From assembly GCF_000215745.1 (NCBI RefSeq), contig NC_015663.1, positions 310,001-374,000 of the forward strand: DNA of 64,000 bases, given 5' to 3'. This document shows, in pieces, positions 48,031 to 52,698 of the stretch. Made by a program: the position numbers and the translations under genes. Each line of letters opens with the position of its first letter. Position 1 is the stretch's first letter. Source of the stretch: Klebsiella aerogenes KCTC 2190 (GTDB lineage: Bacteria; Pseudomonadota; Gammaproteobacteria; Enterobacterales; Enterobacteriaceae). The notes under the pieces were generated by a model. It saw only the letters and a list, made by a program, of their open reading frames with translations, made no database searches and was not told the DNA's origin.

Positions 48031-48372
48031 CTATTTTTTCGGCCGGTATTTTTCCGGCAGCTCCGGCGCCGGTCGCCTGTCGTCAATCAGGTGACGAATG
48101 GTCAGAATCGGGTGGCGCCAGAGCATCCGCGGCCCGGCCCAGCGCATGATCCGCTTCATCTCTTCTCGCTTCGCCGGCTGATAGCAGTGTACCGGACACT
48201 GTTTACAGGCCGGCTTCTCTTCGCCAAATACGCACTTATCCAGCCGCTTGTCGGCGTAAGCGTTAAGCGCCAGGTAATGTTCGCCGTCGTTGCGCGCATC
48301 CGGGCAGCGGCGCTGATAAAGCCTGATCATATTGCCGATAGTCTTCTTTTCGCGATCGATGCGTTTGCCCAT
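48031..48372 (-). CDS. ygbA: YgbA, nitrosative-stress-induced conserved protein
   Basis: Encodes 113 residues. Close to E. coli YgbA, annotated as a nitrous-oxide-stimulated promoter family protein. The cysteines in DKCVFGEEKPACKQCPVHCYQP (shown: CKQCPVHC) could bind a metal or cluster; the C-terminus MRWAGPRMLWRHPILTIRHL is highly conserved. NsrR controls it in E. coli, and an NsrR-like box lies upstream. Its position after fhlA is as in E. coli, but sitABCD is inserted between. Confidence 0.93.
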   Translation of the reverse strand: MGKRIDREKKTIGNMIRLYQRRCPDARNDGEHYLALNAYADKRLDKCVFGEEKPACKQCPVHCYQPAKREEMKRIMRWAGPRMLWRHPILTIRHLIDDRRPAPELPEKYRPKK

Positions 48373-48391: not shown

Positions 48392-48414
48392 AAGATGCAT
48401 TGATTATACACCTT
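48392..48414 (-). promoter_or_regulatory. NsrR-like operator of ygbA
   Basis: AAGATGCATTG followed by A and TTATACACCTT makes a 23-base imperfect palindrome. The first half matches the NsrR consensus half AAGATGCATTT in 10 of 11 positions. It lies 20 bases upstream of ygbA. Confidence 0.75.
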
Positions 48415-48432
48415 TGTATCTGTCAGGGCATC

Positions 48433-49320
48433 TCACTGCTTCAGATGCTGGATTAACTGCAGCGCGGCTCCGGATAACACGCCAAAATGGCTCCAGGCAT
48501 AGAAATCTCGGACAAACACGCTGCCCTTCGCCTCCAGCGGGCGCAACAATCCAAGCTTCTCTTCCAGTCGATAGACGGGAGCAGGCATTGACGTTAAAAG
48601 ATCGCTCTCAGCAATAAAGGATTTTATCGCCGCGGATGAAGCGCACTCGATAATAGGAACCGGACAGGGTAACTGATGCGAGCGAAAAATATCTTCAAGG
48701 ATAAGCATCGGCGTGCTTAATGGCGGCGGCATGATCCACGGATAGTCGAGCATCGCCGCAAGCGACAGACGTTTTTCTTTTTGCAGCGGATGGCCTGGCC
48801 TTGAAATGATACAAATACGGTCCTGCCAGTTAATTTTTCCACGAACCACGATTTTATCGTCATGCGGTAAAGGCCCGCAGAGGGCGATATCTATTTCATG
48901 CATCAGCAGCAGCTTAAACAACTCTGAGTCAATGCGGTCGAATATTTTGATGTGTATCTGGGGATGGCGTTTATGAAAGGCGGCTAATTTATCAATAAAA
49001 TGGCTGGTTAACAGACTGGATACGCAGCCGATTCTCAAAATCCCCTTGCCCGCCCCACGGATCAGCGCCATTTCCTCTCTGGCTTTGTTCTCCGTGTTCA
49101 ACATTGTCATGGCATAGGGTAAAAACGCGCTGCCATACTCGCTTAACGCCATTCCATGCTTATGTCGTTCAAATAAGGTGGCATTCAGATCCTCCTCCAG
49201 GGTCAGCAATAATCGGCTGAGCCCGGATTGCGTAATCCCCATTTTCTCCGCAGCCAGGGTTAAATTTCCTTCGCTGGCGACGGTAAGAAAGGCTTGTATC
49301 TGTTTAATTTTCATAGCCAT
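48433..49320 (-). CDS. LysR-family regulator, probably of the AEC/ThDP cluster
   Basis: Encodes 295 residues. The N-terminal winged helix-turn-helix is IKQIQAFLTVASEGNLTLAA and ITQSGLSRLLLTLEEDL. The effector domain (about 90-290) has the usual two-lobed LysR substrate fold, starting GILRIGCVSSLL. It diverges from the AEC carrier gene across a 183-base gap, the normal arrangement for a LysR regulator and its target. The effector is unknown; the substrate of the neighbouring pathway is a reasonable guess. Base composition is lower in GC than the hyc or sit genes. Confidence 0.9.
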   Translation of the reverse strand: MAMKIKQIQAFLTVASEGNLTLAAEKMGITQSGLSRLLLTLEEDLNATLFERHKHGMALSEYGSAFLPYAMTMLNTENKAREEMALIRGAGKGILRIGCVSSLLTSHFIDKLAAFHKRHPQIHIKIFDRIDSELFKLLLMHEIDIALCGPLPHDDKIVVRGKINWQDRICIISRPGHPLQKEKRLSLAAMLDYPWIMPPPLSTPMLILEDIFRSHQLPCPVPIIECASSAAIKSFIAESDLLTSMPAPVYRLEEKLGLLRPLEAKGSVFVRDFYAWSHFGVLSGAALQLIQHLKQ

Positions 49321-49503
49321 GACAATTACTCATTGAACGAATTATTTTTACATTTCCCTGACGCTTCTTTTTGCGTCAAGAATGCAGTAAGCAACGAAAA
49401 AAATGAATAGTGCAACAGCGGCGCATTTCCGTGGGAAACCCTCTCAATATTTATAGATCAACACCCTGACCCTAACGATAATTTATAATGAGAATAAATC
49501 ACT

Positions 49504-50445
49504 ATGACACAGAACAACATTCTATTAATCCTCGGCGCTATTTTACCCGTTATCATTACCGTTCTCATTGGCTATATCAGCGGTAAACGCAAAGACTTCA
49601 ACTGGCAGCAGGCTGGTGATATTAATAAAATTGTGATGCTGTATGCTTTACCGCTGAGTATTTTCAGTAATATGGTCATGACGCCGCGGCATATCGTGAT
49701 GAGCATGGGGCCGGTCGCTATCGCCATTATCCTGGCGCTAATTCCGAGTTTCCTTATTCCCTTAGCTATCGCCCGTTATATCTGTAAACGCTCCCTGGCG
49801 CTCAGTACCCTACAGGCTCTGGCCATCGGCTCGCCGGCCGTTCCCTTCATTGGCACCTCGGTACTGGCTTTTTTATTCGGCACCGTCAGCGCCTCACTCA
49901 TTACTGTTTCCAGTATTACGCAAAATGTCTTCCAGCTCCCGCTGGTGATGATTCTGATGTCCGTTGCAACGGGGGATAAAAGCCAGAATATCTCTTTTGC
50001 CACGCGGGTCATCAACGCCATCAAGCAGCCGGTGGTATGGTCGCCGGTTGTCGCGCTGATATTAGTATTAATGGATATTCATATTCCAGAAACCGTATCA
50101 ATGTCGCTAGGTCTGCTGGGTAAGGCCTCCGGCGGACTGGCGCTGTTTGCCGCAGGTATCGTGCTCTATACTCGCAGCATTGTCATCACCTCTGCCACCA
50201 TTATTACCGTCATCGCCCGTAATATTCTGGTGCCCGGCGCCTGCTACCTCATTTTGTTAAAAATGGGTTTCAGCATGGAGCAAATAAAACAAGTGGTATT
50301 AACGATGGCGATTCCTGTGGGCTCGATCGCCATTATTATTGCTATGCAATATAAGTCCGGCGAGCAAGAAATGGCCTCGACCATGGCGCTAAGTATTATT
50401 ACTTCCATCATTACGATGGGCGCATTTATTTTCCTGACCTTTTAA
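49504..50445 (+). CDS. AEC-family organic anion carrier
   Basis: Encodes 313 residues with about ten spans. Auxin-efflux-carrier fold: two five-helix halves, with LYALPLSIFSNMVM near residue 47 and IARNILVPGACYLILLKMGF near residue 238. Bacterial members move malonate, malate or other carboxylates (MdcF, MleP). It lies 35 bases before the ThDP enzyme gene and diverges from the LysR gene. Codons are A/T-rich relative to neighbours (ATT, TTA are frequent), a hint of separate origin. Substrate unknown. Confidence 0.88.
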   Translation: MTQNNILLILGAILPVIITVLIGYISGKRKDFNWQQAGDINKIVMLYALPLSIFSNMVMTPRHIVMSMGPVAIAIILALIPSFLIPLAIARYICKRSLALSTLQALAIGSPAVPFIGTSVLAFLFGTVSASLITVSSITQNVFQLPLVMILMSVATGDKSQNISFATRVINAIKQPVVWSPVVALILVLMDIHIPETVSMSLGLLGKASGGLALFAAGIVLYTRSIVITSATIITVIARNILVPGACYLILLKMGFSMEQIKQVVLTMAIPVGSIAIIIAMQYKSGEQEMASTMALSIITSIITMGAFIFLTF

Positions 50446-50480
50446 TCACGGCGATAACATCGCGTTAATCCGGAGAGAAT

Positions 50481-52190
50481 ATGACTTCTATCACTGTATC
50501 GGCCGCTGAATTATTACTGCACCGGCTTCAGGCCCTCGACGTGGCCTATATTTTTATTAATTCGGGTACCGATTATCCCCCGGTTATTGAAGCGTGGGCC
50601 AAAATGCGTGCTACGGGACAACAGGTACCGGAGCTGGTGATATGTCCCCACGAGAACGCCGCTATTGGCATGGCCCATGGCTATTATCTCGGGAGCGGGA
50701 AAGTGCAGGCCGTCATGGTTCACACTAACGTAGGCCTGGCCAATGCCGCCTGCGGCGTCATCAATCTGGCCAACAGCAATATTCCGGTACTGATTTTTGG
50801 CGGACGTACGCCAATTAGCGAGCATTCACACTTTGGTTGTCGCAACACGCCGATTGGCTACGGCCAGGAGATGCGCGATCAGGCGGCGCTCATTCGCGAG
50901 TCGGTGAAATGGGACTTTGAATTACGCATTGCCGATCAGATCGGCGAGCATGTTGACAGAGCATGGGCGATAGCCCGTTCATTGCCAAAGGGGCCGGTGT
51001 ATTTGAGCCTGCCGCGCGAGCCGCTATGCGAAACGTTCACGATCGATGAACAAGCGCTTCATGCCTCCCCCACCCAGCAGCCGGTACGCTACGCGCCAAC
51101 GCGGGCGGATATTGCCAGCGCCGCCGATGCGATAGCCAATGCCAGACAGCCGGTCATCTTCGCCCAGCGCGGCGCAAGAACGTCTGGTGGCTTTGCGCGG
51201 CTCAATACCCTGGTTAAGGAGTGGGCTATTCCGGTGGTGGAATACTGGGGCACTGAAGTCACCCTTAGCAGCGACAATCCTATGCTGGCCGGCAGCGATC
51301 CCGAAGGCTGGCTTTCTGCCGCCGACGTCATCATCGTTATCGACTCACAGGCCCCGTGGATCATCGAAGAAAGCCGCTGCAACGACAGCTGTAAGGTGAT
51401 CCAGATCGGCCCCGATCCGCTTTTTTCCCGCTACCCCGTCCGCGGTTATCGCGCCGATATTAACCTGGCCGGAGAAACCGACGAGGTATTCGAACTTTTA
51501 CAAGAGGCGCTCCAGCCGCTTGTGGCGGCGAAGCAACGGCAGGTGGCTGAACGTGAAAAACATGTGCTTAACCTGATTCAACACGCGAAGAACCAACGTG
51601 AAGCCCTCCTCCACGCCAACCAAAAAGGGGCGATTGGCAAACCTTGGATGAGTTACTGTCTGGGTCAGCTTGCCAATCAACATCAGGGGAAGATCGTCTC
51701 TGAACTGACAACAATGCCGCAGTTTGCCGGCCTGACTCAGGCGGACAGTTATTATCAGGAAGCGCTGGCGGGCGGTCTGGGTGAAGCGTTGCCCATCGCC
51801 TTAGGGCTGCAGCTCGCCCGGCGGGGTGAGCTTATCATCGCCGCCGTTGGCGACGGCTCCTATCTCTTTGCCAATCCGGCGGTGTGTCATCACATCGCGG
51901 AAGTGATGAAGCTTCCCGTGCTGGTGGTGGTCGGCAACAATGGCGGCTGGGGAGCGGTGGCGGGCGGCACCCGGGCGCTCTATCCCGACGGCTATGCTGC
52001 TAAAATGGACGCGATCCCGGCCACCGCGTTCTCGTCGTCGCCAGATTTCGCCGCGCTCGCCGCCTCCAGCCGCGCGGCTGCGCTGACGGTTTCGCTGGCG
52101 GAAGATCTCCCCGGGGTACTGGAAGAGGCGGTCGCTATTATTCGCACTCGCCGACAAAGCGTACTGGTCAACGTTGAACTAGGACGTTAA
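50481..52190 (+). CDS. Thiamine-diphosphate-dependent enzyme, acetolactate synthase-like
   Basis: Encodes 569 residues. The N-terminal Pyr domain has the cofactor-activating glutamate in CPHENAAIGMAHGYY near residue 55. The central domain starts near residue 200. The C-terminal PP domain has the ThDP motif GDGSYLFANPAV ending in VVGNNGGWG near residues 456-485. It resembles acetolactate synthase large subunits and 2-oxo-acid decarboxylases, but no partner small subunit is nearby. GGAGAG lies 7 bases before the ATG. With the AEC carrier it may decarboxylate or ligate an imported 2-oxo acid. The reaction is not known. Confidence 0.87.
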   Translation: MTSITVSAAELLLHRLQALDVAYIFINSGTDYPPVIEAWAKMRATGQQVPELVICPHENAAIGMAHGYYLGSGKVQAVMVHTNVGLANAACGVINLANSNIPVLIFGGRTPISEHSHFGCRNTPIGYGQEMRDQAALIRESVKWDFELRIADQIGEHVDRAWAIARSLPKGPVYLSLPREPLCETFTIDEQALHASPTQQPVRYAPTRADIASAADAIANARQPVIFAQRGARTSGGFARLNTLVKEWAIPVVEYWGTEVTLSSDNPMLAGSDPEGWLSAADVIIVIDSQAPWIIEESRCNDSCKVIQIGPDPLFSRYPVRGYRADINLAGETDEVFELLQEALQPLVAAKQRQVAEREKHVLNLIQHAKNQREALLHANQKGAIGKPWMSYCLGQLANQHQGKIVSELTTMPQFAGLTQADSYYQEALAGGLGEALPIALGLQLARRGELIIAAVGDGSYLFANPAVCHHIAEVMKLPVLVVVGNNGGWGAVAGGTRALYPDGYAAKMDAIPATAFSSSPDFAALAASSRAAALTVSLAEDLPGVLEEAVAIIRTRRQSVLVNVELGR

Positions 52191-52205
52191 TCGCAGCCAG
52201 CCGTT

Positions 52206-52499
52206 TTAGATCTGCTTCCCGGCATTATCCACGTGCCCCAGCGCTTTTTCCGGGAAGCAGACGTCCCTCACCCGCCGTTTCAGTTCAGCCGCATCCGGAA
52301 AACCGCCGTCCTGCTTACGCTCCCAGATTTGTACCCCGTCAACGGTTACCACAAAAATGCCGCCGGTACCGGGCACCAGCGTGACCGAAGCGATATCGGT
52401 ACTAAAGGTATGCAGCAGCTCCTGGGCCATCCAGCTGGCGCGCAGCATCCAGTTGCATTGGGAACAGTAGTGAATGGTAATCATCGCTTTATGGCTCAT
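52206..52499 (-). CDS. SelT/SelW/SelH-family thioredoxin-like protein
   Basis: Encodes 97 residues. The redox motif YCSQCNW lies near residue 11 with two cysteines (no selenocysteine codon). The family has a small thioredoxin-like fold; VPGTGGIFVVTVDG and WERKQDGGFPDAAELKRRVRD are typical of its second half. I start at MSHKAM (52499), since residues upstream lie within the Fur-box region. It diverges from hmuR across the Fur site and converges on the ThDP gene with 15 bases between stops. A role in iron or redox stress is inferred from that site only. Confidence 0.85.
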   Translation of the reverse strand: MSHKAMITIHYCSQCNWMLRASWMAQELLHTFSTDIASVTLVPGTGGIFVVTVDGVQIWERKQDGGFPDAAELKRRVRDVCFPEKALGHVDNAGKQI

Positions 52500-52565
52500 G
52501 TTGGCTTGCTCCCCTCCGCACGAATGTAAACAAAATTCAGAATAGATGATTATTTTGTTGCAAAC

Positions 52566-52584
52566 GATAATACCTATCATTACC
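52566..52584. promoter_or_regulatory. Fur box between the SelW-like gene and hmuR
   Basis: GATAATACCTATCATTACC resembles the Fur consensus GATAATGATAATCATTATC. It lies 67 bases upstream of the SelW-like gene and 115 upstream of hmuR, so it may serve both directions. Confidence 0.8.
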
Positions 52585-52698
52585 ATTCGCAATTACTAAA
52601 TCAGGAATACCACTGTCCGCCAGGGAAAACACGGACCAACCTGCACTCTGGAAGTAACGCGTGAGCCGATACTAATAATTATCAAGGCGTGGCTACAA

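Follow-up and report, generated by a model that had tools for sequence, protein, structure and literature searches.

The locus and its genes

We examined a three-gene cluster of Klebsiella aerogenes KCTC 2190, a candidate system for handling aromatic 2-oxo acids, within a 64,000-nucleotide stretch of contig NC_015663.1 (positions 310,001 to 374,000, here called the window; the genome is a single contig of 5,280,350 bases). The original prediction had described a LysR regulator divergent from a carrier and an enzyme dependent on thiamine diphosphate (ThDP), and had suggested that transport of a 2-oxo acid is joined to its decarboxylation or ligation. Open reading frames (ORFs) and Pfam matches bore out the three-gene block and its divergent arrangement, and the features, in window coordinates, are as follows.

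48433..49320, minus strand: LysR-family regulator of 295 residues, divergent from the operon (Pfam LysR_substrate 98 bits, HTH_1 63.9 bits)
49321..49503, no strand: divergent intergenic region with a GC content of 0.37, presumed promoter and operator region
49504..50445, plus strand: AEC-family carrier of 313 residues (Pfam Mem_trans 112.6 bits)
50481..52190, plus strand: ThDP-dependent enzyme of 569 residues, PRK08327 family (NF006203, 746 bits), by sequence comparison a probable arylglyoxylate decarboxylase
48419..52218, no strand: the insert, with approximate limits set by comparison to six empty sites, where homology to those sites breaks off and resumes
48031..48372, minus strand: ygbA, left flank, outside the cluster (NF007716, 219 bits)
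52206..52592, minus strand: SelT/SelW/SelH (Rdx) gene, right flank, outside the cluster (Rdx 109.5 bits); the insert reaches its last codons

The LysR and AEC genes are 183 bases apart and the AEC and ThDP genes 35 bases apart, and the three TPP_enzyme domains of the ThDP protein, as well as the LysR and AEC Pfam matches, exceeded the Pfam cut-offs. As predicted, no small-subunit gene adjoins the ThDP gene, whose neighbours are the AEC and SelT/SelW/SelH genes, and the regulator and carrier genes are richer in A/T (GC 0.49 and 0.48, with 0.59 for the ThDP gene) than sitD, ygbA and hmuR (0.58). The claim that no dehydrogenase or CoA ligase is adjacent stood for the window locus; as to the dehydrogenase it does not hold for the cluster's relatives, since K. 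grimontii and Cedecea have an alcohol dehydrogenase (ADH) gene beside theirs. The LysR protein had no NCBIfam equivalog above cut-off among the 25 matches listed; its nearest solved homolog was TsaR, the regulator of tsaMBCD (92.6 bits), a similarity that hints weakly at an aromatic ligand. We saw no convincing regulator box in the LysR-AEC intergenic region. One second AEC match is present elsewhere in the genome, with 22% identity to the cluster carrier.

Insertion, inheritance and distribution

We searched for the SelT/SelW/SelH flank gene in 20 Klebsiella genomes, the window's included, and found it in 19. In 15 of these 19 the site was empty, with ygbA directly beside the flank gene in the uninserted order sitD-ygbA-SelTWH-hmuR (sitD was partial or beyond reach in a few short loci), whereas in the other four (G000, G012, G014 and G019) the ThDP gene adjoined SelT/SelW/SelH. 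Homology to six empty sites ended at 48414-48418 and restarted at 52219-52226, breakpoints that define an insert of ~3.8 kb containing the three genes only. Of the six empty-site genomes compared, G004 had the right flank most similar to that of the window (90% nucleotide identity). In K. grimontii (G015) the site was empty (L182) and the cluster lay at another place (L039), showing that there are two sites of the cluster within Klebsiella. The insert-free order thus upheld the prediction that this interval is variable, and the empty site together with the second insertion site supported an acquired origin. As to the further statement that ygbA is next to mutS in E. coli, the two genes are neighbours in the one E. 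coli record that we read, with one small ORF between them. The right boundary of the insert (52219-52226) sits in the final codons of the SelT/SelW/SelH gene, so the C-terminus of its product is unlike that in the empty-site genomes.

When the K. aerogenes cluster was compared with that of K. pneumoniae at the same site, synonymous divergence (dS) was 0.94-1.86 in the three genes and 1.30 in the adjoining ygbA. The shared site and the ygbA-like divergence suggest that the cluster was present in the common ancestor of these two species and was later lost in others, transfer being the alternative. The ratio of nonsynonymous to synonymous divergence (dN/dS) in the same comparison was ~0.05-0.07 in the cluster, indicating purifying selection.

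The three genes, whose co-occurrence the original prediction had made a test of its proposal, stay together: the trio was complete in every enterobacterial locus that we read with its flanks (the window, L038, L051, L137, L138, L039 and L043/L133). Counting in each case the window's genome or the genome at the centre of the sample, strong matches to the ThDP protein were found in 5 of 20 genomes of the same genus, 3 of 392 sampled within the family, 13 of 398 sampled across the phylum, 34 of 385 from the class to which genome G337 belongs, and 4 of 399 from the order that includes the Neisseriaceae genome. A megablast search of the cluster against 20,395 E. coli records gave no match.

K. aerogenes record LR134122.1 encodes a protein with 100% identity to the ThDP protein across 569 residues. 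This record (568 kb) and CP125156.1 (5.37 Mb) are both PLSDB plasmid records that bear the Klebsiella cluster; the size of the latter and its sit and hem genes suggest a chromosome misfiled as a plasmid.

Family and active site of the ThDP enzyme

The ThDP protein belongs to NCBIfam NF006203/PRK08327 (746.3 bits, cut-off 456), which is typed as an equivalog; its name, 'thiamine pyrophosphate-requiring protein', goes with no reaction assignment for the family. We found no orthologue with a known reaction among NCBIfam models, PDB sequences or the literature searched. The name PRK08327 did not occur in the open-licence literature searched, and we found no description of the cluster among the matches listed there for benzoylformate decarboxylase (BFD), mandelate/phenylglyoxylate, AEC carriers, Klebsiella and Alphaproteobacteria.

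Active-site positions were assigned through a match to BFD (1bfd), in which query positions 34-90 (residues 53-109 of the full protein) fell on chain positions 42-98; since the matched stretches are of equal length, we took the alignment to contain no gaps, which gives an offset of 11 in the numbering of the full protein. On this assumption, Glu58 falls on BFD Glu47 and His81 on BFD His70, two residues described in PMC6028569. The same paper reports that replacing His70 with Thr or Leu costs only a modest loss of activity, so His81 serves as a marker and not as proof. Glu58 and His81 were invariant in all 48 rows of an alignment of the window protein with 47 rows picked by hand from 120 listed proteins (alignment A2; fragments P0014, P0025 and P0031 excluded). 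The invariant Thr30 may be the counterpart of BFD Ser26, a position outside the stretch aligned to 1bfd.

We extended the comparison to 59 PRK08327 loci (seven gamma- and betaproteobacterial, 17 of an alphaproteobacterial sister group and 35 distant) and to ilvB genes as acetolactate synthase controls, taken from 30 of 31 genomes that host distant and sister members (G910, a partial match, was excluded, and plasmid hosts were not used). Every PRK08327 locus (59 of 59) had His at position 81, where all 30 controls had Thr, and position 30 was Thr in 58 and Ser in one of the 59, with Gly in every control; in all, the window enzyme differed from the controls at positions 30, 31, 81, 144, 293 and 432. 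These results bear directly on the possibility that the enzyme is an acetolactate synthase working without a small subunit, the name given to the copy on LR134122.1 and used in several source names. With a score of 117.3 bits to TIGR00118 (cut-off 538.35) and an active site unlike that of acetolactate synthase, we consider this very improbable and rejected it, on the low score and on Thr30 and His81 standing where the controls have Gly and Thr.

Neighbourhoods of relatives

In a tree of 76 rows, the window protein fell into a group of 14 rows (support 100/100) with sequences from Klebsiella, Cedecea and Neisseriaceae and some that were unplaced. This group and an alphaproteobacterial one of 23 rows, the latter supported at only 88/54, lay within a clade of 37 rows (100/99). 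Within the 14-row group, K. grimontii and Cedecea carry a zinc ADH gene directly 3' of the ThDP gene, which in Cedecea reads as two open frames. The K. grimontii ADH had no NCBIfam model above cut-off; its top solved match was 5tnx, a zinc ADH with no named function (463 bits), followed by benzyl alcohol dehydrogenase 1f8f (439 bits); no other ADH class exceeded 210 bits. The window genome has an unlinked homolog of this ADH at 4334897-4335985 (51% identity; 360 bits to 1f8f). In one Neisseriaceae locus (L040), BenE (459.5 bits, cut-off 203.4) is encoded immediately upstream.

In the alphaproteobacterial group, Ponticoccus (L050) encodes a protein of the mandelate racemase/muconate-lactonizing enzyme family and a tripartite tricarboxylate-type transporter together with an alpha-hydroxy acid oxidase and an aldehyde dehydrogenase. 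An oxidase and an aldehyde dehydrogenase are also encoded at the loci of Paroceanicella (L053) and Neorhizobium (L046); judged by homology, these three loci would represent full mandelate-type sets. The Ponticoccus oxidase found its best single-domain solved match in (S)-mandelate dehydrogenase (259 bits), after two longer L-lactate oxidase constructs. For the Ponticoccus racemase-like protein the best NCBIfam models, below cut-off, were sugar-acid dehydratases, so we regard the gene as racemase-like and not as an established mandelate racemase. Roseivivax (L048) has pobA and pcaGHC beside the ThDP gene, and Chelatococcus (L049) has pca genes and an aldehyde dehydrogenase. Four sister-clade loci (L045, L047, L124 and L126) share a recurrent set, made up of an ABC branched-chain-type transporter, an aldehyde dehydrogenase, a short-chain dehydrogenase/reductase, the ThDP gene and a gene of the 2,4'-dihydroxyacetophenone dioxygenase family, which is perhaps a set for aryl ketones.

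To count such associations we used as markers, at a threshold of at least 100 bits in the fetched loci, hydroxy-acid oxidase, aldehyde dehydrogenase, PobA, PcaGH, 2,4'-dihydroxyacetophenone dioxygenase and the racemase-like protein. The fetched regions covered 37 of 51 distinct PRK08327 places beyond the window and 19 of the 29 plasmid records, and several control and test loci were truncated by contig ends. Markers lay beside 13 of 17 sister-group loci (8 of 12 once five loci that had supplied probes were removed), none of the 30 ilvB controls (Fisher p = 4e-6) and 7 of 35 distant PRK08327 loci (p = 0.005 versus the 8 of 12), p values that assume independent loci, which these strictly are not, as L127 and L128 share a genus and L201 closely resembles L049. 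Three sister loci fetched later (an aldehyde dehydrogenase beside L201, and no marker beside L200 or L202) bring the reduced count to 9 of 15. Since neighbourhoods differ between NF006203 clades (loci L105-L118 and L129-L143), with few markers in distant members, the family probably covers more than one reaction.

Proposed function

Known systems gave us a framework for the cluster. In Pseudomonas sp. LLC-1, according to PMC7760541, bzfRABCD encodes a LysR regulator, a benzoylformate decarboxylase, a carrier of the major facilitator superfamily (MFS), a benzaldehyde dehydrogenase and a porin; benzoylformate induces it, and the strain has no mandelate genes. Of the mandelate-operon LysR regulators tested in PMC10204090, one of three responded to S-mandelate and phenylglyoxylate. 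On the strength of the bzfRABCD-like layout and this regulator response, we propose a route of uptake, decarboxylation and, where an ADH is present, interconversion with an alcohol. The cluster would be a compact unit for the uptake and decarboxylation of arylglyoxylates (benzoylformate-type acids), a reading to which we give even chances. The AEC carrier would import an aromatic 2-oxo acid, with benzoylformate or 4-hydroxybenzoylformate as the likeliest substrate; the ThDP enzyme, to judge from its residues and its relatives' neighbourhoods, would convert the acid to the aromatic aldehyde by BFD-like decarboxylation; and the LysR protein, given the layout and the known benzoylformate and mandelate systems, would sense the acid and switch the divergent operon. 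In K. grimontii and Cedecea the linked aryl-alcohol dehydrogenase would interconvert aldehyde and alcohol, a job that the unlinked homolog at 4334897-4335985 may do in the window genome. The predicted coupling of 2-oxo acid transport to decarboxylation is thereby favoured, if indirectly, and narrowed to an aromatic acid by the relatives' neighbourhoods and the BFD-type residues.

The cluster resembles bzfRABCD in bringing together a LysR gene, a carrier and a ThDP enzyme and in needing no mandelate-oxidising gene. It differs in having an AEC in place of an MFS carrier and a ThDP protein of another family that scores under the BFD cut-off; the insert encodes neither an aldehyde dehydrogenase nor a porin, and two relatives have a linked ADH instead. 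In the mdl pathway, MdlB is an (S)-mandelate dehydrogenase, MdlC a benzoylformate decarboxylase and MdlD a benzaldehyde dehydrogenase. Similarly, in Alphaproteobacteria the genes for relatives of the ThDP protein have oxidase and aldehyde dehydrogenase genes as neighbours, and the equivalents of Glu47 and His70 are kept, whereas the Klebsiella cluster would correspond to the decarboxylase step alone, with an enzyme that is no MdlC orthologue by score. The most likely function is decarboxylation of arylglyoxylates, served by a carrier and a regulator of the cluster's own; the system would work like mdl and bzf, with an enzyme that by score lies outside the BFD family and with a different carrier and ThDP subfamily.

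Several observations weigh against an arylglyoxylate decarboxylase. The protein scored only 116.1 bits against the BFD model NF005485 (MdlC/BzfA; cut-off 493); its best whole-protein matches among solved structures were 2-hydroxyacyl-CoA lyases (HACL, 87 bits); and a profile search of solved structures left HACL, acetohydroxyacid synthase (AHAS), BbmA and BFD nearly tied at 127-134 bits. A structure model with the common ThDP fold (mean predicted local distance difference test score, pLDDT, 88.5) matched BFD and acetolactate synthases equally well, and its top Foldseek ranks were a carboligase and HACL, so that BFD is singled out neither by the fold nor by similarity over the whole protein. 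No second catabolic enzyme is encoded at the window locus itself, 4 of the 17 sister loci and 2 of the 3 fetched later (L200 and L202) are without markers, BenE was absent from the other Neisseriaceae locus (L041) within its 12.9 kb, and the nearest NCBIfam models to the relatives' oxidases were of lactate-dehydrogenase types, below cut-off. In addition, the 35 distant members, 28 of which lack aryl markers, share His81; this residue is thus not aryl-specific and argues against AHAS more than for an aryl substrate. On the other hand, when the C-terminal 158 residues were searched separately the best solved matches were BFD entries (45 bits), nearly all of them variants of one enzyme.

With BFD-like residues in all 59 family loci and differing neighbourhoods around the distant ones, the family probably covers several acids, and the enzyme could act on a 2-oxo acid of another kind, either an arylpyruvate (phenylpyruvate, indolepyruvate) or an aliphatic acid, in which case the relatives' ADH would lead to a fusel-type alcohol. 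The aryl markers found next to sister-clade genes, and also within the enzyme's own clade, point instead to C6-C2 acids, and we regard this alternative as unlikely, though the strongest of the rivals. It seems improbable that the enzyme is a carboligase or lyase akin to benzaldehyde lyase, glyoxylate carboligase or BbmA, making or breaking C-C bonds and releasing no free aldehyde: many ThDP decarboxylases ligate too, and BbmA and glyoxylate carboligase were among the top Foldseek matches, but the aldehyde and alcohol dehydrogenases beside relatives fit removal of an aldehyde.

In E. coli, the yfdXWUVE region for oxalyl-CoA decarboxylation places the AEC gene yfdV near a ThDP decarboxylase gene. 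YfdV was the nearest NCBIfam model to our carrier, and HACL the best solved match to our enzyme, which raises the possibility of an oxalyl-CoA decarboxylase or HACL paired with a YfdV-like carrier. Both scores fall far under their cut-offs (133.3 bits versus 404 for YfdV and 93.5 versus 600 for the HACL model), no CoA-transferase or ligase is adjoining or in the insert, and HACL carries Thr in the alignments at the place of His81; we keep this as a weak and quite improbable rival. The yfd operon is named in PMC6339873.

If the proposed uptake and decarboxylation of arylglyoxylates is right, a common mislabel would be corrected and one PRK08327 clade would gain a function, as PRK08327-type proteins are currently labelled acetolactate synthase or merely thiamine-pyrophosphate-requiring; the nearest sequence cluster alone (P0002, 85% identical) has 3,663 member sequences. 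It would also provide a substrate lead for an AEC carrier and point to an accessory aromatic-acid trait in some Klebsiella species. A broader scenario, which we consider rather unlikely in its entirety, is that enteric bacteria acquired at two sites a self-contained route in which plant or gut arylglyoxylates would be taken up by the AEC carrier, decarboxylated, and reduced by a linked or unlinked aryl-alcohol dehydrogenase to aryl alcohols. This would be a non-oxidative variant of the mandelate pathway, with a ThDP subfamily that has no known reaction and an aromatic 2-oxo acid as an AEC substrate.

Additional observations

The aryl-alcohol-dehydrogenase-like gene of the window genome (L197, 4334897-4335985) lies ~9 kb from a pcaGH-like pair (L198, from 4344399). 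In the Neisseriaceae locus L041, gene labels such as acyl-CoA dehydrogenase and CaiB were read off the sequence. Two partial PRK08327 copies, each with one in-frame stop (G374:C1:790684-792075 and G1070:C1:280693-282015), are possibly decaying. Among 14 control genomes, Sulfolobus acidocaldarius was the sole one with an NF006203 member above cut-off, so the family extends to archaea. Locus L108 (G1102:C2) has tandem PRK08327 genes, 18 bases apart by match coordinates.

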